64,000 nt of DNA, taken from Mesobacillus jeotgali. GTDB taxonomy: Bacteria; Bacillota; Bacilli; Bacillales; Cytobacillaceae. Below the pieces are notes generated by a model, which saw only the letters and a list, made by a program, of their open reading frames with translations, did not search any database and was not told the DNA's origin. Of this stretch, positions 11,201-17,911 are shown piece by piece. Every line of letters begins with the position of its first letter. The first letter of the stretch is position 1. Location of the stretch: the NCBI RefSeq assembly GCF_014856545.2, contig NZ_CP109811.1:4210001-4274000 (forward strand), written 5' to 3'. The translations under genes and the position numbers were made by a program.

Positions 11201-12271
11201 TTAATGACCTGCCGTCATAAGTACGATATAAGCCATAAATACGAAAAACAATCCAAATACCACGGATCCTGCTACCATGTTTTTACGAGTAAAACTGAGT
11301 ACCATTAGAATCAATAAAATGGTTGATAAGAATACTCCAAAAAGAAAGGAGGCATCCACATTTAACTGTACTATATCATTAGTTAGAAAGGGATGAAACC
11401 ACTTATACAACTGTGAATAGCCTTCTGTTTTAATCATTGATTCTATATCATGCGGTGGAGATTGAATTCCCAGTGCACCAGTCACAATAAATATCAAGGT
11501 TATAAATATGCCCTCTGCTCTCATCCATTTAATTGTTGAGGGACCTGGATGCTCTGCTTGTTTTTTCATCAATATTCCATTGATAAATGCAAAAACTAAT
11601 AGAGGAATTATAAGTATATGTTTAACTAATAAAGCCTGTCCATATGGAAGCATCCAAGAAGAGACATAATCTTTAGGGTCCACAACCAGTTTCATGGTCA
11701 TGAAACCACTTACAATGATTAAAATTAGACAAAGAATAGCTGTAGGTGTAAACCAAGACAAAAATTTACTCCAGTTACGCACGTCCTTTGAGAATAGAGA
11801 AACAATCAATAATATACCTGTCCAAACCACTACTCCAAGAAAATGTATTGTGTGAGATGTCAGGCCATACCAAAAGGACAAACTTGCAGCATGGCTCGAA
11901 TATCCAACGGCAATAATTAACAATAGAACTAGAAAAGTTTGAAAATACTTGGATTTATTAAATAAAATCATGAAGTATAAAAGCAGTCCTACCCATGAAG
12001 TAAACATCCAAGCTTTTCCTACTTCAAAATCAAATAGAACTGAACGTAATGTTTCCCAAAAACCTAAAGCTTCTATAAAGTAGAAAATCACTTGAACTAC
12101 TGGCCCTATTGAAGCAAAAATGATTCCCAGTATCGATAGAAAATATACTGCTCTTGGAATTTCAATTTTTGGTTTAAAATTTACAGGAACGAGCTGAAAA
12201 ATCATAGCTCCAACTAAAATAGAAAAAGAAAGGTACAAAATAGTTTCAGATACTATTAGATAAAAGGTCAT
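11201..12271 (-). CDS. copD: CopD family copper resistance/uptake membrane protein
   Basis: 356 residues with about nine membrane helices. The CopD region includes HTIHFLGVVVWTG (about residues 140-152) with the conserved His residues, and a later helix ending VTGALG. CopD proteins are thought to move copper across the cytoplasmic membrane together with CopC. The start overlaps the copC stop by 4 bp (ATGA type), so the genes are coupled. A C-terminal extension of about 80 residues with three further helices follows the core. Confidence 0.85.
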   Translation of the reverse strand: MTFYLIVSETILYLSFSILVGAMIFQLVPVNFKPKIEIPRAVYFLSILGIIFASIGPVVQVIFYFIEALGFWETLRSVLFDFEVGKAWMFTSWVGLLLYFMILFNKSKYFQTFLVLLLIIAVGYSSHAASLSFWYGLTSHTIHFLGVVVWTGILLIVSLFSKDVRNWSKFLSWFTPTAILCLILIIVSGFMTMKLVVDPKDYVSSWMLPYGQALLVKHILIIPLLVFAFINGILMKKQAEHPGPSTIKWMRAEGIFITLIFIVTGALGIQSPPHDIESMIKTEGYSQLYKWFHPFLTNDIVQLNVDASFLFGVFLSTILLILMVLSFTRKNMVAGSVVFGLFFVFMAYIVLMTAGH

Positions 12272-12852
12272 TTTTTACCCTTTCTGAAAATAAAGAGTGC
12301 CATAATTAGTATGGTTAAGGCTGCTGCAGGCAAAAACCACTTTTGGAAATTTGAATTTCCCACTCCCTCTTGTTTATTTTGTTCGTCTTGGGACAAAGTG
12401 TCATCTTCCTTGTTTTGCTCCTGACCCTCCTGCTCTGAGTCTTCAGTTTGGTTCTCGGTTTCATCTTCTCTGTTAGAAGCTTCAGTTTGAGTTTGATCAG
12501 GTACTTGAACGGTAAAAGAAATGGTTCCCTCCAGAGGATGACCATCTTCTCCAACTATTTTCCAAGTCGCCTTATACTCGCCATTTTCTAATGGCTTATC
12601 CAATTTCCCAATTAATTTATCTTCCTCAATCGTAATATTTTCAACTTGGTATGTCTCGTTATTATGTGTTAAGAATAGCTCACCAATTGTTTCAATTTCT
12701 GTTTCAAAGGTGATGTCTATCATATCAAGCGGTTCCTTTACAATCTCCCCTTCTGCAGGATTCGATTCTTTTGTATAAGAATGGGCAAAGACCTCAATTT
12801 TTAAATTAAAGCTAATAAGAATAAGGATTGCTATAACCCAGATCTTTTTCAT
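12268..12852 (-). CDS. copC: CopC domain copper-binding protein, membrane anchored
   Basis: 194 residues. I use the ATG at 12852 because AGGAGG lies 9 nt before it. A TTG 21 bp further upstream would overlap the preceding gene. A signal peptide ends ...EVFA, leaving His24 as the mature N-terminus. With Asp103/His105 in EDGHPLEG it gives the canonical CopC Cu(II) site. A low-complexity acidic linker (Glu/Gln/Asp/Asn, about 115-165) leads to a C-terminal transmembrane helix (about 170-188). It binds extracytoplasmic copper and is coupled to copD. Confidence 0.88.
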   Translation of the reverse strand: MKKIWVIAILILISFNLKIEVFAHSYTKESNPAEGEIVKEPLDMIDITFETEIETIGELFLTHNNETYQVENITIEEDKLIGKLDKPLENGEYKATWKIVGEDGHPLEGTISFTVQVPDQTQTEASNREDETENQTEDSEQEGQEQNKEDDTLSQDEQNKQEGVGNSNFQKWFLPAAALTILIMALFIFRKGKK

Positions 12853-12865
12853 TTTCGAAAACCTC

Positions 12866-13246
12866 CTACTCAACTATAAAATCCATTTTGGGCATGTTGT
12901 GCATCCCTCTAGCAGTTACATGCGCGATAATAGTATATTTTCCTGCTTCGGAAAAAGACTTTTGGATGGCATAGATTCCAGATTCACTATTTTTAGCCTC
13001 TAGCTTTTCATGAGTTTCCTGGCCTTCTTTCCAAATCTCAAATTGTACAGAGTCAGCATCATTCACATTTTCTTTTCCCTGAGTAATTCGGGCTTTCAAT
13101 GCTACAGTTTCCCCTTTTTTTATTACTTCAGGCAGAATAATTTCAACATCAACCATTTCGAGTAGGGATTCCTTGTTACTTTCCTGTGCACACCCACCCA
13201 ATATAAAAAATACAGAAGCAAATATTATCATTATAAATGATTTCAT
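12866..13246 (-). CDS. FixH/YtkA-like extracytoplasmic lipoprotein
   Basis: 126 residues with lipobox LGGC (Cys19) and an Ig-like beta domain ending in ARGMHNMPKMDF. The HxMPxM stretch is typical of FixH/YtkA-like domains and offers His and Met copper ligands. It is the first gene of the copC-copD transcript, 14 bp upstream of copC. AAGGAG precedes the ATG. The likely role is binding or delivering copper outside the membrane, possibly for oxidase assembly. This is inferred from family and context. Confidence 0.75.
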   Translation of the reverse strand: MKSFIMIIFASVFFILGGCAQESNKESLLEMVDVEIILPEVIKKGETVALKARITQGKENVNDADSVQFEIWKEGQETHEKLEAKNSESGIYAIQKSFSEAGKYTIIAHVTARGMHNMPKMDFIVE

Positions 13247-13291
13247 TTAAATCAACTCCTTATTCCAAGGCTTAAGGCTTTTCTTTAACAG

Positions 13292-13305
13292 TGAATATAT
13301 GAGCA
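13292..13305. promoter_or_regulatory. CzrA-like motif at the copper operon promoter
   Basis: TGAATATATGAGCA differs from the czcD motif only in the order of two bases near its end. On the minus strand it lies between a possible -35 TTGATT and -10 TAAAGA (17-bp spacer), about 45 bp upstream of the first copper gene. Confidence 0.4.
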
Positions 13306-13429
13306 ATCAATCATATAAAATAATACTAATTTTAAGAGTATAAATCAATATCTTTAGGCAAATGACTTTCCATACTTACTATTAAGGCTTAGGTTAAATT
13401 ATGAAACGTTATGAAAATAAATTAATCAT

Positions 13430-13463
13430 AAAGAAGCCCACATTCATCATTTCCAATGTGGGC
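13430..13463 (-). terminator. Terminator of the cadC-cadA-methyltransferase operon
   Basis: GCCCACATT (13436-13444) pairs perfectly with AATGTGGGC (13455-13463), followed on the minus strand by TTCTTTAT. It is 12 bp beyond the methyltransferase stop. Confidence 0.8.
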
Positions 13464-13474
13464 CCTGGCCAAAA

Positions 13475-14089
13475 TTAAACTTTCATTAAAACTATTTTTT
13501 GGTACATACCATTGAATAATGATTTTTTTCTCTCTAATAGTCTTATACTCTTCGTTTCATTCGCGATGGACTCAAAGGATAAACCAATATCTGTACCTAA
13601 TAGTCTAATCAATGGTCGAATTAATCTTTTCGATAATGAAAGTTCTTTCTTACCGTCAACAAATTTATCAAAAACAACAATCTGTCCACCATATTTCGTA
13701 ACACGGGTCATTTCATCAAGGGCTTTTTTGCCATCGGGAACGACAGTTAATATCAAGCTGCCAATGACATAATCAAACGTATTGTCTGGCAGGTTCATGC
13801 TTTGAGCATCCATTTGTATAAATTCAATTTTTTCGCCTTCGTACTTCTTTCTTGCTTGATTTAGCATGTCTTCTGAAAAGTCTATGGCTGTTACCTTGAG
13901 GCTGTTATAAGGGACTTGATCGATATCCGCCCCTGTGCCAACCCCTACGAAAAGTACGGATTCTCCTGCTTTAAACTCTATATCTTGAAAAACTCGTTTT
14001 CTTGCTTCTAAAAATAGTCCGGAATTAAAAAAGTAATCGTAGATGGGGGACCAAATTTTATAGATGAATCGATTCCAATTATTATTCAT
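13475..14089 (-). CDS. Class I SAM-dependent methyltransferase in the cad operon
   Basis: 204 residues with a Rossmann-type SAM-binding site: motif I VLFVGVGTGADID (about 45-57), acidic residue after strand 2 (AIDFSEDM), and motif IV-like DYVIGSLILTVVPDG. The closest broad class is UbiE/Methyltransf_11. The substrate cannot be read from sequence. It is 21 bp downstream of cadA on the same strand and followed by a terminator, so it is expressed with the cadmium-responsive operon. A metal(loid)- or stress-linked methylation is possible but unproven. Confidence 0.85.
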   Translation of the reverse strand: MNNNWNRFIYKIWSPIYDYFFNSGLFLEARKRVFQDIEFKAGESVLFVGVGTGADIDQVPYNSLKVTAIDFSEDMLNQARKKYEGEKIEFIQMDAQSMNLPDNTFDYVIGSLILTVVPDGKKALDEMTRVTKYGGQIVVFDKFVDGKKELSLSKRLIRPLIRLLGTDIGLSFESIANETKSIRLLERKKSLFNGMYQKIVLMKV

Positions 14090-14110
14090 CTGATTACCCC
14101 GTTCGTTAAA

Positions 14111-16255
14111 TTATTCTTTTACCCTCAAAAGTCGCAAACCGTTTAAAGTGACAATAAGAGTAGCCCCCATGTCGGCAAATATAGCGATCCATAAGGTAAG
14201 CCATCCTGGTATCACTAGCAGAAGTGCAATAAGCTTGATTGCCAGGGAGAATGTAATGTTTTGCTTGATGATCGTTAAGGCTTTTCTGCTTAACTTGATA
14301 GTAAACGGCAGTTTCTTGAGATCATCGCCCATTAAAGCAATGTCTGCAGTTTCCAGAGCCGTATCAGTCCCTGCTCCTCCCATGGCGATTCCTACAGTGG
14401 CAGAAGCTAGAGCAGGTGCATCGTTGACCCCATCTCCAACCATGGCCACTTTACCGTGTTCATCACGCAATTTCTTGATAAATGCCAGTTTATCCTGTGG
14501 AAGAAGTTCCGCTTCGATGTCAGATACTCCGACCAATTCACCAATTGCATTTCCAGTCCCTTTATTGTCACCTGTCAGCATGATGGTCTTCTTTATTCCA
14601 AGTTCATGGAGTCTGGCGATAGTGGAACGGCTGCTTTCCCTAACTTCATCTGCTACTGCAATCAACGCGGATATACTATCCGTAGTGCCCACAACCATGA
14701 CTGTTTTTCCTTGAAGCTGTAATTCATTAATTTTTTTACTAATGTCAGATGAAATACTCTGATTTAACAACTCTTCAAATAACTTTGGATTTCCAATAAA
14801 GTAGGTTAACCCGTTTATTGTTCCTTTTATCCCTTTTCCCGTAATCGATGAAAAATCCTCCACAACTAGGTCCTTGAAAGAAATTTCTTTTTCCTCTGCT
14901 TTTTTTATTATCGCTGAAGCAAGAGGATGCTGAGAATTATATTCTAATGCAGCTATGATACTCAGCAGCTCATTTTCCTTCTGCTCATTATCAAGCATTA
15001 CATAATCAGTAACTGCAGGTACGCCTTTTGTTAAAGTACCTGTTTTATCAAATGCGATGGCGTTAAGCGCACCCGCTTCCTCAAGATAAACTCCGCCTTT
15101 GATTAATACTCCATTCCTTGCTGCATTTCCTATTGCAGTTACAATGGCAACCGGCGTCGAAATGACAAGTGCGCAAGGACAGCCGACAACTAGGACCGCA
15201 AGCCCTTGATAAATCCACTCACTCCAGTCTGCCTGGAATAGAAGCGGCGGGATTATAGCCACAAGTGCAGCAATCACAATAATGGCCGGTGTATAATACT
15301 TTGCAAACTTATCGACAAAAGCCTGGGAAGGTGCTCTCTCCGCTTGGGCTTCTTCTACTAGGTGAATGATTTTCGCAATTGTTGTATCATCGACCCTTTT
15401 TGTTACTTTGACTTCCAGTAAGCCTTCTGTATTCAATGTACCTGCAAAAACATCATCATCCACTGATTTTTCCAGCGGTACGGATTCTCCAGTAATTGCT
15501 GCCTGGTTAACGGATGAATATCCTTTAACGACAATTCCGTCCATAGCAATTTTTTGACCTGGCTTCACGATCATGATATCACCGATTTGGATATCATCTA
15601 CTTTAATCAATAGTTCCTGACCATTACGACGGATGAGTGCTTCTTTTGGCGCGATATCCATTAATGAACGAATCGAAGCCCGAGCCTTATCCATGGAATA
15701 TTTCTCAAGCGCCTCAGAGATTGCAAATAAGATAACAACTACTGCACCCTCAGTCCATTCGCCGATAAAGCCAGCACCGATAATGGCAATCGTCATGAGA
15801 GTTCGCATGTCGAACTCTAACCGGAAAAGATTTTTCAAACCCGTTTTAAATAAAGAAAATCCTCCAATTAAGATGGCTGCCAGAAAAGCCGCGATCGTTG
15901 GCAGACTTTCTTCCCCATTAATAGACTGAGAGACATAACCTAAAACCACAAACAGTAATGAAGCCAAAACTGTGGAATATTCCTTCCAGAATGGTTCTTT
16001 TTTCTGTGGTTTCATCTCACCCTTTTCAGGATAGATCTTCAAATTTTCAAAAGCTCCAGCCTCTTCCAGCTTTTCAATCGTTGTGTTTCCAACCACCGTT
16101 ATTTTTGAGGCACCGAAGTTTACACTTGCATCCAAAACACCATCCAGGTGCTTTACGTTCTTCTCGAACGTTCTAGCGCAGCCCGCTCAAGAAAATCCTT
16201 CGATGCGATAAACCGTCTTCTCTGCATTAAGATTCTGTTCTAAAGCCTCAGTCAA
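14111..16255 (-). CDS. cadA: Cd/Zn/Pb-exporting P1B-type ATPase CadA with in-frame TGA at the HMA CxxC motif
   Basis: Start TTG at 16255, with AGGAG about 10 nt upstream and overlapping the cadC stop. It reads 714 residues if the TGA codon 23 (16189-16187) is decoded. Codons 20-26 read G-F-S-TGA-A-G-C, so the TGA replaces the first Cys of the N-terminal metal-binding CxxC. The frame is unbroken on both sides and aligns with known CadA proteins ([11 protein letters not shown]). Downstream motifs are intact: TGES, CPC (about 359-361), DKTGT (Asp403), HP and GDGVND. If TGA is a true stop, a restart at TTG 16135 would give 674 residues without a working HMA domain. Selenocysteine insertion, nonsense mutation and sequencing error are the three explanations. 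Confidence 0.85.
16155..16189 (-). other. Candidate selenocysteine site: TGA plus bSECIS-like hairpin in cadA
   Basis: On the coding strand the TGA (16189-16187) is followed after 15 nt by ACGTTC-GAGAA-GAACGT (16171-16155), a perfect 6-bp stem with a 5-nt loop. The loop begins 22 nt after TGA and starts with G. Known bacterial SECIS elements show a short stem at this distance with a G among the first two loop bases. Part of the palindrome comes from the conserved Phe-Glu-Lys-Asn codons, so chance is possible. Confidence 0.4.
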
Positions 16256-16616
16256 GGGTACTCAACTCCTTTTGATGTTCAAATGCAATACTAATCAATT
16301 GTTTTACATGTTCATCCGTAAGAGAATAAAAAACCAATTTCCCTTCTTTCCTGTACTTTGCCAAACCCATATTTTTAAGTAAACGCAAGTGATGCGATGC
16401 AGTTGCAGTTGAAGCCCCTACAATATTGCCAACATCACATACACAAAGCTCATCCTCCAAATAAAGGGAGTAGGCAATTTTCATCCTTGTTTCATCTGAA
16501 AGGGCTTTGAATATCTTGGCCACATCCTTTGTTTCATCAGGTTTTAGGATGGCTTTTACCCGATCAACCCTTTCTTGATCCACACATGCCACTTGACATA
16601 CATCGATTTCCTTCAA
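16248..16616 (-). CDS. cadC: Cadmium-responsive ArsR family repressor CadC
   Basis: 122 residues from TTG at 16616, the length of the Staphylococcus CadC. GGAGGTG lies 5 nt before this TTG. An ATG at 16673 lies inside the operator and promoter and is not credible. Metal ligands are visible: two N-terminal Cys (CQVAC, about residues 6 and 10) and ELCVCD before the recognition helix, together the alpha-3N Cd/Pb/Zn thiolate site. The HTH helix is STATASHHLRLL. It represses its own operon from two operators and, by operator identity, probably bdbD-bdbC. Its 3' end overlaps the cadA start by 8 bp. Confidence 0.95.
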   Translation of the reverse strand: MKEIDVCQVACVDQERVDRVKAILKPDETKDVAKIFKALSDETRMKIAYSLYLEDELCVCDVGNIVGASTATASHHLRLLKNMGLAKYRKEGKLVFYSLTDEHVKQLISIAFEHQKELSTLD

Positions 16617-16640
16617 ATTGATCACCTCCGTTTCACCAAC

Positions 16641-16692
16641 ATTCAAATGGACGTTTGAATACATTATATTCAAAAATGTGTTTGAATGTCAA
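16641..16692 (-). promoter_or_regulatory. cadC promoter with two CadC operators
   Basis: TTGACA (16692-16687), an 18-bp spacer and TATAAT (16668-16663) form the promoter. Operator ATTCAAA-N6-TTTGAAT at 16668-16687 fills the spacer. A second copy at 16641-16660 lies just after the -10. Both are perfect 7-6-7 inverted repeats, the form known for CadC boxes. Confidence 0.88.
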
Positions 16693-16754
16693 AGATAATA
16701 ATTTTTAATTTCCCTCAAAAGCAGCTCGAATAACCAGTCCGAGTATGAAGCGAC

Positions 16755-16799
16755 AAAAAAAACCAAAAAGAGCCGACCCATTAAGAAAAGGGACAGCTC
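16755..16799 (-). terminator. Terminator of bdbD-bdbC
   Basis: On the minus strand GAGCTGTCCC pairs with GGGTCGGCTC (one G-T pair, one mismatch), followed by TTTTTGGTTTTTTTT. It begins 7 bp past the bdbC stop. Confidence 0.75.
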
Positions 16800-16805
16800 G
16801 CTATG

Positions 16806-17234
16806 TCATCGGTTCTTGCGCTTAATCAATAGAGCCATAAAAATGATAATAAGAGTAAATGCTGTGAATGCTAAGAATGGTATGGTTATAAAACCAAACC
16901 AATTGATATATTGAGCCGTACATGGAACACCACTGACACAAGGTTTAACTTGTGCAAATCCAGGAACCTTTTGTACTAGGTAGTGATTAAGAGATATCAG
17001 CCAACCTATGACAGCTAAAGGCAATACGAATTTTTTTACAGCTGTATCATTTTGAAATGTCGCAATTCCTAATAGCAACACCAAAGGATACATAAGAATG
17101 CGTTGGTACCAGCATAACTCACAGGGAATAAAGCCAGCTATTTCACTGAAATACAGACTGCCCAAGGTTGCCATCAGTGAAACAACCCAGGCTAAATAAA
17201 GGTAGATTTGCTCGCCATTTACGCTTTTCATCAT
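16806..17234 (-). CDS. bdbC: Disulfide bond formation protein BdbC (DsbB-like quinone oxidoreductase)
   Basis: 142 residues with four membrane helices. The first extracytoplasmic Cys pair is CELC (Cys38, Cys41), and the second loop has Cys99 and Cys105 (KPCVSGVPC). These relay electrons from the partner thiol oxidase to quinone. The start overlaps the bdbD stop by 4 bp. In B. subtilis bdbC-bdbD also lie beside a cadmium ATPase gene, so the neighbourhood is conserved. Here a CadC operator controls the pair. Confidence 0.93.
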   Translation of the reverse strand: MMKSVNGEQIYLYLAWVVSLMATLGSLYFSEIAGFIPCELCWYQRILMYPLVLLLGIATFQNDTAVKKFVLPLAVIGWLISLNHYLVQKVPGFAQVKPCVSGVPCTAQYINWFGFITIPFLAFTAFTLIIIFMALLIKRKNR

Positions 17235-17911
17235 TGTTTTTCCTTTAAGCCTTCTTCTATTAAGGAAATGATCAACTCATAATCAAAAGGATCTTCAAGT
17301 ATCGTGTCATTCACCATAATGGTTGGAGTCTTCTCTACTTTAAATTCCTCTACTAGTGCAGTGTCTTTGTCCAACTCCTCTTTTATCTCCTGGCTCCGCA
17401 TATCTTTTTCCAGTACCGCCAAATCAATCCCTGGTACAGTGGAAGCAACTTCTAATGCCTTTTCCTCTGTAAGCCAGTTAGAGTCATGATCGGCACCTGG
17501 TTGTTCGCTAAATAACTGTTTATGGAATTGCCAATAACCTTCAGGACTCTGTTTGTAGACAGCTTCTGCAGCAGCTGATCCCACTTTAGATTCTTCACCA
17601 TGAAACAGCACATTGATGTACACAAATTTCACTTTTCCCTGGTCAATGTAATCTTTAATTAATGTGGGAAAGAATTGTTCTCCCCAGGCTTTGCATGCTG
17701 GGCATTTATAATCACCGAATTCGACTACAGTAACTGGCGCATCCGCCACTCCCAATGTAGGCTGCCCTTCGATCGGCGGTAATTTGTCTGTGGTTGTGTC
17801 AGGATTTGTTTCTGACTTCGAATTGATCATAACTAATGCTGCCAGAGCTACTACTACAACAAGGGTTATAATGACTGCCATTTTAAAGAATGAATTATTT
17901 TTTGGAACCAT
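17231..17911 (-). CDS. bdbD: Thiol-disulfide oxidoreductase BdbD (DsbA-like)
   Basis: 226 residues: an N-terminal membrane anchor (about 10-30), then a DsbA-like thioredoxin fold with active site CPAC (Cys70, Cys73), an inserted helical domain, and the cis-Pro loop TPTIMVN (about 195-201). It introduces disulfides into exported proteins and is re-oxidised by BdbC, encoded next in the same transcript. The promoter carries an exact CadC box over its -35, which suggests induction by Cd, Zn or Pb, metals that attack extracytoplasmic thiols. Confidence 0.93.
   Translation of the reverse strand: MVPKNNSFFKMAVIITLVVVVALAALVMINSKSETNPDTTTDKLPPIEGQPTLGVADAPVTVVEFGDYKCPACKAWGEQFFPTLIKDYIDQGKVKFVYINVLFHGEESKVGSAAAEAVYKQSPEGYWQFHKQLFSEQPGADHDSNWLTEEKALEVASTVPGIDLAVLEKDMRSQEIKEELDKDTALVEEFKVEKTPTIMVNDTILEDPFDYELIISLIEEGLKEKQ

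Follow-up and report, generated by a model that had tools for sequence, protein, structure and literature searches.

The cadA gene on the reverse strand of a 64,000-nt stretch of Mesobacillus jeotgali DNA (assembly GCF_014856545.2, contig NZ_CP109811.1, positions 4,210,001 to 4,274,000; hereafter the window, in whose numbering positions are given) very likely encodes a selenoprotein, a reading to which we assign a probability of roughly 0.9. According to it, the in-frame UGA at codon 23 is decoded as selenocysteine (Sec), giving the HMA domain of this metal pump a UxxC in place of its CxxC site. At the level of sequence comparison, the position of this codon, its conservation as either TGA or a cysteine (Cys) codon, its association with the Sec machinery and selection acting on the RNA structure downstream of it are established. 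A preliminary description of the same DNA had proposed a Sec-containing metal ATPase, and the machinery of the genome, the conservation of the codon, the co-occurrence with SelA and the selected RNA lend this proposal strong support.

The gene (14111..16255, minus strand) codes for a P1B-type heavy-metal ATPase of the CadA/ZntA type and comprises 714 codons including the Sec codon. Its TTG start at 16255 is found 10 nt behind an AAGGAG and overlaps the end of cadC. The TGA (16187..16189, minus strand) occupies the first metal-ligand position of the HMA CxxC within the codons TTT-TCT-TGA-GCG-GGC-TGC (F-S-TGA-A-G-C), the last of which (16178..16180, minus strand) specifies the second Cys of the UxxC site and is TGT or TGC without exception in the 80 named loci. 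Past this single in-frame TGA, the frame remains open down to 14111. The 714-residue read-through product reached 623.5 bits against TIGR01525 (cut-off 346.25) and 524.8 bits against TIGR01512 (cut-off 313.5) and contained PF00403 (HMA, residues 15-66), PF00122 (E1-E2 ATPase) and PF00702 (hydrolase). Alignment to the solved cadmium-ATPase domain 2aj0 (E 7.1e-24) put the TGA on the first Cys of SCTNC; together with the TIGR01525 and TIGR01512 scores it confirms the earlier assignment of the codon, with CadA frame on both sides. Membership of the P1B-2 (CadA) group is indicated by the HMA domain, a CPC and a DKTGT motif, all of which were found, the latter two being the membrane and phosphorylation motifs of P1B-2 ATPases.

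Conservation of the codon was evaluated in several partly overlapping sets. At the first-ligand codon of the HMA domain, 65 of 80 named cadA loci carry TGA and the remaining 15 TGT or TGC, a pattern that exceeds chance. A search pattern demanding Cys or TGA at the first and Cys at the last position matched 130 of the 144 loci L024-L167, which partly repeat species, and divided them into 105 TGA and 25 Cys copies; among the 14 loci missed by the pattern, three (L141, L148, L149) have TGA at the site, while no TGA was seen in the others, the site of L161 lying beyond the inspected part. A pattern-free check of 66 CadA-like matches in 61 genomes, the own genome included, yielded 43 matches with a single TGA as the only internal stop and 23 without any stop, and all 43 carry their TGA at the HMA first-ligand codon. 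Extension to a class-level sample of 121 genomes, with up to nine candidates scored per genome, added 23 TGA-bearing matches. Apart from one fragment with several stops (G208), these were retrieved, 21 of the 22 reach the site, and 21/21 show TGA at the same codon. The class-level TGA copies fall in 16 families other than that of the window. Two odd copies appeared in this sample, one with a TAG elsewhere and Cys at the site (G134) and one with TGA at the site plus a TAG (G115). TAA or TAG at the first-ligand codon itself was seen in none of the copies read. Comparison with relatives, which the preliminary description had named as a check, hence finds TGA kept or Cys in its place and no random disruptions. 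On a FastTree tree of 113 copies, calculated without the HMA columns, 10 changes between Sec and Cys are required, 8 of them forced by well-supported branches.

Some individual records in this material stand out. The Cys-type cadA copies L091-L093 and L095-L098, from Heyndrickxia, Metabacillus, Cytobacillus, Robertmurraya, Virgibacillus and Bacillus records, seem almost the same across the HMA domain and have perhaps spread recently. The cadA of a record titled Chryseobacterium sp. ISL-80 (L040) is nested among Mesobacillus copies, the assembly probably being mislabelled. The 387-kb plasmid pBO1 of Cytobacillus oceanisediminis 2691 carries a TGA cadA together with an ArsR-family gene (L177); the RefSeq protein WP_082919471.1 belongs to a coding sequence spanning this TGA, which the NCBI pipeline evidently reads through already, the residue presumably being marked there as Sec.

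The genome (G000; one contig of 4.84 Mb, complete) holds every component that the preliminary description had listed for verification, i.e., a tRNA-Sec with anticodon TCA (detected by ARAGORN; Rfam 67.1 bits, cut-off 47), SelA (478.9 bits), SelB (364.5 bits) and SelD (393.3 bits). The selD gene has an in-frame TGA of its own, and two of four FdhA matches over the cut-off contain one in-frame TGA each, in the context NRT-U-HAPSV and with a hairpin whose GUC loop lies 19 nt after the UGA. Judging from selD and the two fdhA genes, UGA therefore very probably stands for Sec elsewhere in this genome. Three cadA genes are present, all with TGA at the HMA codon, and the two outside the window each have a cadC relative upstream; among nine HMA matches in the genome, TGA occurs in the three CadA copies, the other six being without any stop. 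The nearest named cadA among those listed, in a listing that may omit near-identical records, is that of Mesobacillus subterraneus MITOT1 (97%). A further formate-dehydrogenase-like match of 208 bits, below the cut-off and with one in-frame TGA (G000:C1:4692249-4693001), is possibly another selenoprotein gene.

Across the 61 genomes, SelA was detected in 37 of 37 with a TGA copy versus 9 of 19 with only TGA-free copies (Fisher p 2.6e-6). This split omits one genome whose match ends short of the HMA domain (G004) and four genomes without a CadA match, counts G010 and G016 as SelA-positive, and treats SelA matches below 100 bits (G021, G057, G058 and secondary hits) as other proteins, though most exceed the profile cut-off. 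In the named genomes, full SelA and SelB were found in 34 of 35 with TGA versus 3 of 11 with only Cys loci, the test covering 50 of the 80 loci (48 genomes) and “only Cys” referring to the retrieved loci; two genomes with one Cys and one TGA locus each (G097 and G105), both SelA-positive, were omitted. The two sets overlap in species, and species are not independent in the Fisher statistics. In one genome with a TGA cadA, selA appears as two overlapping matches (G016:C1:1845726-1846827), by a frameshift or a sequencing error.

Two consecutive hairpins follow the TGA. Hairpin 1 (ACGTTC-GAGAA-GAACGT; 16155..16171, minus strand) begins 15 nt past the TGA and forms a 6-bp stem with a 5-nt loop, 21 nt separating TGA and loop. 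The geometry reported for it in the preliminary description, with the GAGAA loop starting with G at nt 22, was recovered from the sequence. Its interpretation as a mark of a selenoprotein fared differently: the accompanying caution that conserved codons partly dictate the hairpin was justified, as 2291 of 5000 synonymous re-codings yield a stem of at least 6 bp in an allowed position, no more than chance, and hairpin 1 was rejected as stand-alone evidence. TGA copies keep at least five of its six pairs in 90 of 109 cases, Cys copies in 13 of 31. Considering these data, hairpin 1 is largely a consequence of the protein sequence, and the main recoding element is probably another structure.

The diagnostic structure is instead hairpin 2 (AAAGCACC-UGGAU-GGUGUUUU; 16134..16154, minus strand), located beyond the coordinates of the preliminary description, with an 8-bp stem and 40 nt from TGA to loop. 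Over 88 distinct TGA copies it is paired in 98% of cells, compared with 51% in 20 Cys copies, and two pairs show double, i.e., compensatory, changes (nt 40-50: A-T in 80 and G-C in 4 of 88; nt 36-54: A-T in 73 and C-G in 8 of 88). The synonymous sites frozen in TGA copies lie 21-53 nt downstream of the TGA. Among 92 TGA copies, codon usage at positions +7 to +17 is nearly invariant for TTC (0.97), AAC (0.95), CAC (0.99), GGT (0.95) and GTT (0.98), with CTG in 91 of 91 Leu and GAT in 84 of 84 Asp codons where the residue is Asp. Each of these frozen codons exceeds all other conserved columns of the same residue (best other Leu 0.59, n=40; best other Gly 0.54, n=44), and they map onto hairpin 2. 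We lean towards hairpin 2 as the main selenocysteine insertion sequence (SECIS) in the Mesobacillus/Neobacillus clade.

Distant families carry other stem-loops in the same coding stretch. Type A has 6-7 bp and a GUU loop 17 nt after the UGA (CUGCUCA-GUU-UGAGCAG, CCGCUCA-GUU-UGAGCGG and, via linked amino-acid changes, CUUCUCG-GUU-CGAGAAG); type B has 6-8 bp and a GUU or GGU loop 38 nt after the UGA (CCAGGC-GUU-GCCUGG, UUCAGGC-GUU-GCCUGAA). Of 109 TGA copies, 106 carry hairpin 2 or a stem of type A or type B, versus 1 of 31 Cys copies, the 109 consisting of the 88 distinct and 21 class-level copies (two alike from one genome) and not including L141, L148 and L149. Of the three TGA copies below the stem cut-offs, L189 and L202 each have a near-miss stem. 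The lone stem-bearing Cys copy (L217 from G164) retains 6 of 7 type A pairs, and its HMA domain is almost that of the TGA copy L186 (G179); because both share one genus code (g86), this Cys copy looks like a fossil. The stem-loop counts make decoding of the UGA the best account of the data.

An extended imperfect stem (16145..16185, minus strand) starts 1 nt after the TGA and encloses hairpin 1, nt 4-11 pairing with nt 38-44. Its pairing is kept at 90% in TGA copies versus 51% in Cys copies, and because the ACACC arm is used by both, it excludes hairpin 2. In a longer fold computed for 16120-16195 of the window, the region of the UGA is paired to the stretch forming hairpin 1 (minimum free energy (MFE) -27.5, z -3.96, 0 of 200 shuffles as good).

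The bacterial SECIS (bSECIS) consensus, as given in the legend of Fig. 2A of PMC13188914, comprises a loop of 3-9 nt, a stem of 4-16 bp, 16-37 nt between UGA and loop (“for most”), an MFE of -7.5 kcal/mol or lower and a G at loop position 1 or 2, in most cases with G or U next to it on the 3' side; according to the same paper, a subset of elements falls outside this model. In loop and stem size, both hairpins agree with it (5 nt and 6 bp for hairpin 1, 5 nt and 8 bp for hairpin 2), and both have the loop G, in first position followed by A in GAGAA and in second position followed by G in UGGAU. The spacing is inside the range for hairpin 1 (21 nt) and outside for hairpin 2 (40 nt), types A and B standing at 17 and 38 nt. 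Hairpin 1 alone reaches an MFE of -6.2 and misses the threshold, whereas hairpin 2 (-8.4) and hairpin 1 with the extended stem (-13.7) lie below it. Compared with bSECIS elements in general, cadA differs by its two tandem hairpins, other families carrying types A and B.

A number of observations speak against Sec insertion and have to be set beside this evidence. Neither hairpin fits the consensus as a whole, hairpin 1 failing in energy and in the base after its loop G and hairpin 2 in spacing, and neither loop has the GU(U/C) seen in the FdhA hairpins of the genome and, by eye, in that of its selD. Among synonymous re-codings of the stretch in the window, 115 of 5000 fold equally well. Codons for Glu at +8 and Val at +11 stay within the range of other columns and are not frozen, and the finding that the same columns are looser in 21 Cys copies (Phe 0.76, Asn 0.76, Gly 0.52, Val 0.48) does not extend to the Leu, His and Asp columns, whose residues differ there. 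Two of the 37 SelA genes are damaged in the assembly, one having internal stops (in G010, 66% complete) and one being in two pieces (G016). For the TGA cadA of Bacillus sp. B1-b2 (L081 on contig34, G089), otherwise open, neither SelA nor SelB was found; a recent arrival, a broken gene or a gap in the assembly may explain this exception. All of the evidence is comparative, and the species compared are not independent.

These points were weighed against accounts that dispense with Sec. A nonsense mutation would leave cadA a decaying pseudogene or a shorter pump made from a downstream start, and the standard open reading frame listing indeed begins the pump at TTG 16135, covering the whole pump core and losing the metal-binding domain; the TGA copy in a genome without SelA and SelB would also be at home here. 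We nevertheless consider this account highly improbable. TTG 16135 is unconserved, relatives showing TCT, TTT, TAT, GTT and others besides TTG, and tens of species, as well as 16 further families, have their TGA at this very codon, with no TAA or TAG seen in the copies read and with SelA nearly always present in TGA genomes. The Arg six codons ahead of the TGA (-6) is kept in 92 of 92 copies while synonymous sites drift (codon entropy 2.24 bits). The pseudogene was rejected on the grounds that one codon keeps TGA, no other stop was seen there and residues before it are conserved. Recoding of UGA by altered tRNAs is known, and together with Cys in 15 of 15 non-TGA named loci it could suggest that the codon specifies a residue other than Sec, either Cys carried by tRNA-Sec or Trp through near-cognate reading, with a functionally ordinary HMA site. 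This is very improbable in view of the complete selA-selB-selC-selD set, the co-occurrence of SelA with TGA and the stem-loops marking TGA copies; besides, Cys is more simply obtained by TGT or TGC, a change that happens repeatedly.

If Sec is inserted, its function has to be considered separately. Compared with two thiols, a selenolate paired with a thiolate offers Cd, Pb and Hg ligands that are softer and more acidic. On these chemical grounds, we somewhat favor Sec acting as a metal ligand in the HMA domain. The main alternative, compatible with Sec insertion and in our estimate rather unlikely, regards Sec less as a better ligand than as a means of switching the synthesis or activity of the pump according to selenium or redox state, e.g., through a UxxC selenenylsulfide. 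UxxC resembles redox motifs, codon 23 would be an early point for halting wasted synthesis, the extended stem and hairpin 2 are mutually exclusive by their shared arm, and DsbA-/DsbB-like genes adjoin cadA in the window. Against this, the two residues concerned are the metal ligands of a metal domain, the gene stands in a cadC-cadA arrangement, and DsbA/DsbB-like relatives within about 3 kb of cadA were found in just 1 of 64 TGA and 1 of 14 Cys named loci. For the redox sensor suggested in the preliminary description, support extends no further than chemistry.

In the mechanism that we propose for Sec insertion, metal would release CadC from the operon, and ribosomes initiating at TTG 16255 would meet the UGA at codon 23, where SelB, carrying Sec-tRNA and anchored at the hairpin(s) downstream, would insert Sec. 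Failed decoding would end in a stub of 22 residues, so pump output would depend on selenium. The Sec selenolate, soft and of low pKa, could bind Cd(II), Pb(II), Hg(II) or Zn(II) with its partner Cys in the regulatory N-domain and so feed or activate the CPC transport site. A ribosome positioned with its decoding site on the UGA would mask the 5' arm of the extended stem, leaving the ACACC arm free for hairpin 2 to form. As a tentative generalization, this Bacilli metal-pump family might employ at least three stem-loops, at 17, 38 and 40 nt, for UGA recoding and have moved many times between Sec and Cys; in Mesobacillus/Neobacillus, a two-state RNA of extended stem and hairpin 2 with one shared arm might open as the ribosome reaches the UGA, so that a soft-metal exporter would be made in dependence on selenium.

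One close counterpart is CadA of the Listeria / Staphylococcus pI258 type, a P1B-2 ATPase with N-terminal HMA domain, together with CadC. The HMA domain, CPC, DKTGT and the cadC-cadA order are common to both, and the N-domain of the present cadA aligns with 2aj0, an entry named “Probable cadmium-transporting ATPase”; the difference is that the first ligand Cys codon is TGA here. Selenoproteins of a related kind have been listed as a family, for which a review gives Zhang and Gladyshev (2007) as the source. Sec-containing UxxC cation ATPases are entered as a selenoprotein family (PMC13188914, PMC9312934), also in an ocean survey (PMC2398784), and a 2016 count gave 25 organisms and 32 genes (PMC5029168). 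Going by the table rows (PMC13188914, PMC9312934), these proteins (e.g., ABB15669.1) belong to the same ATPase superfamily and have UxxC with Sec first and one Sec per protein. The relevant passages name no Bacilli member, whereas TGA copies are common across Bacilli here; cadA furthermore differs by three copies in one genome, plasmid copies and stem-loops outside the usual spacing. Sec in soft-metal sites is likewise a feature of the UxxU metal-binding (seleno)protein NF041115, whose model matched residues 11-55 with 25.9 bits against a cut-off of 95, a score well short of it, and of the putative mercuric transport selenoproteins, both families being listed in PMC13188914; unlike these, cadA combines a UxxC site with a pump in one protein. 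According to the abstract of PMC9312934, redox reactions are the presumed field of most selenoprotein families in prokaryotes.

In NCBIfam release 20, no dedicated selenoprotein CadA model was among the best 25 of 26 families. Our literature search, to which supplementary tables were external, so that an earlier Bacillales listing is possible, returned no paper dedicated to a Bacillus cadA selenoprotein, and the text of the deep-Sep paper (PMC12013277), searched for ATPase and Bacill, gave no hit. As far as these searches show, the breadth in Bacilli, the repeated exchange of Sec and Cys, the second hairpin and the three stem-loop forms are new. If Sec sits in the metal-gripping site of an exporter, its role as a metal ligand becomes directly testable, and Sec and Cys versions in related species, once even inside one genus code, offer natural pairs for asking what purpose Sec serves. 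The three stem-loop forms provide naturally occurring data on which elements SelB of these bacteria accepts. Gene callers taking TGA as a stop start such genes late and thereby drop the metal-binding domain.

A scan of the window for further TGA-interrupted frames returned 50 candidates; among the 40 looked at, the non-overlapped ones besides CadA resembled gene-upstream sequence by eye, no domain search being made. Directly upstream of cadA, with its 3' end overlapping, lies the gene of a cadC-like ArsR-family regulator (16248..16616, minus strand; PF01022 on 16248-16613). Where the upstream sequence sufficed, a cadC relative immediately precedes cadA in 59 of 64 named loci with TGA and in 13 of 14 with Cys, two of the 80 being too short and excluded. 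Within 11201-17911 of the window, the cadC-cadA pair is flanked by DsbB-/DsbA-like genes upstream and by a methyltransferase gene together with YtkA-, CopC- and CopD-like genes downstream.
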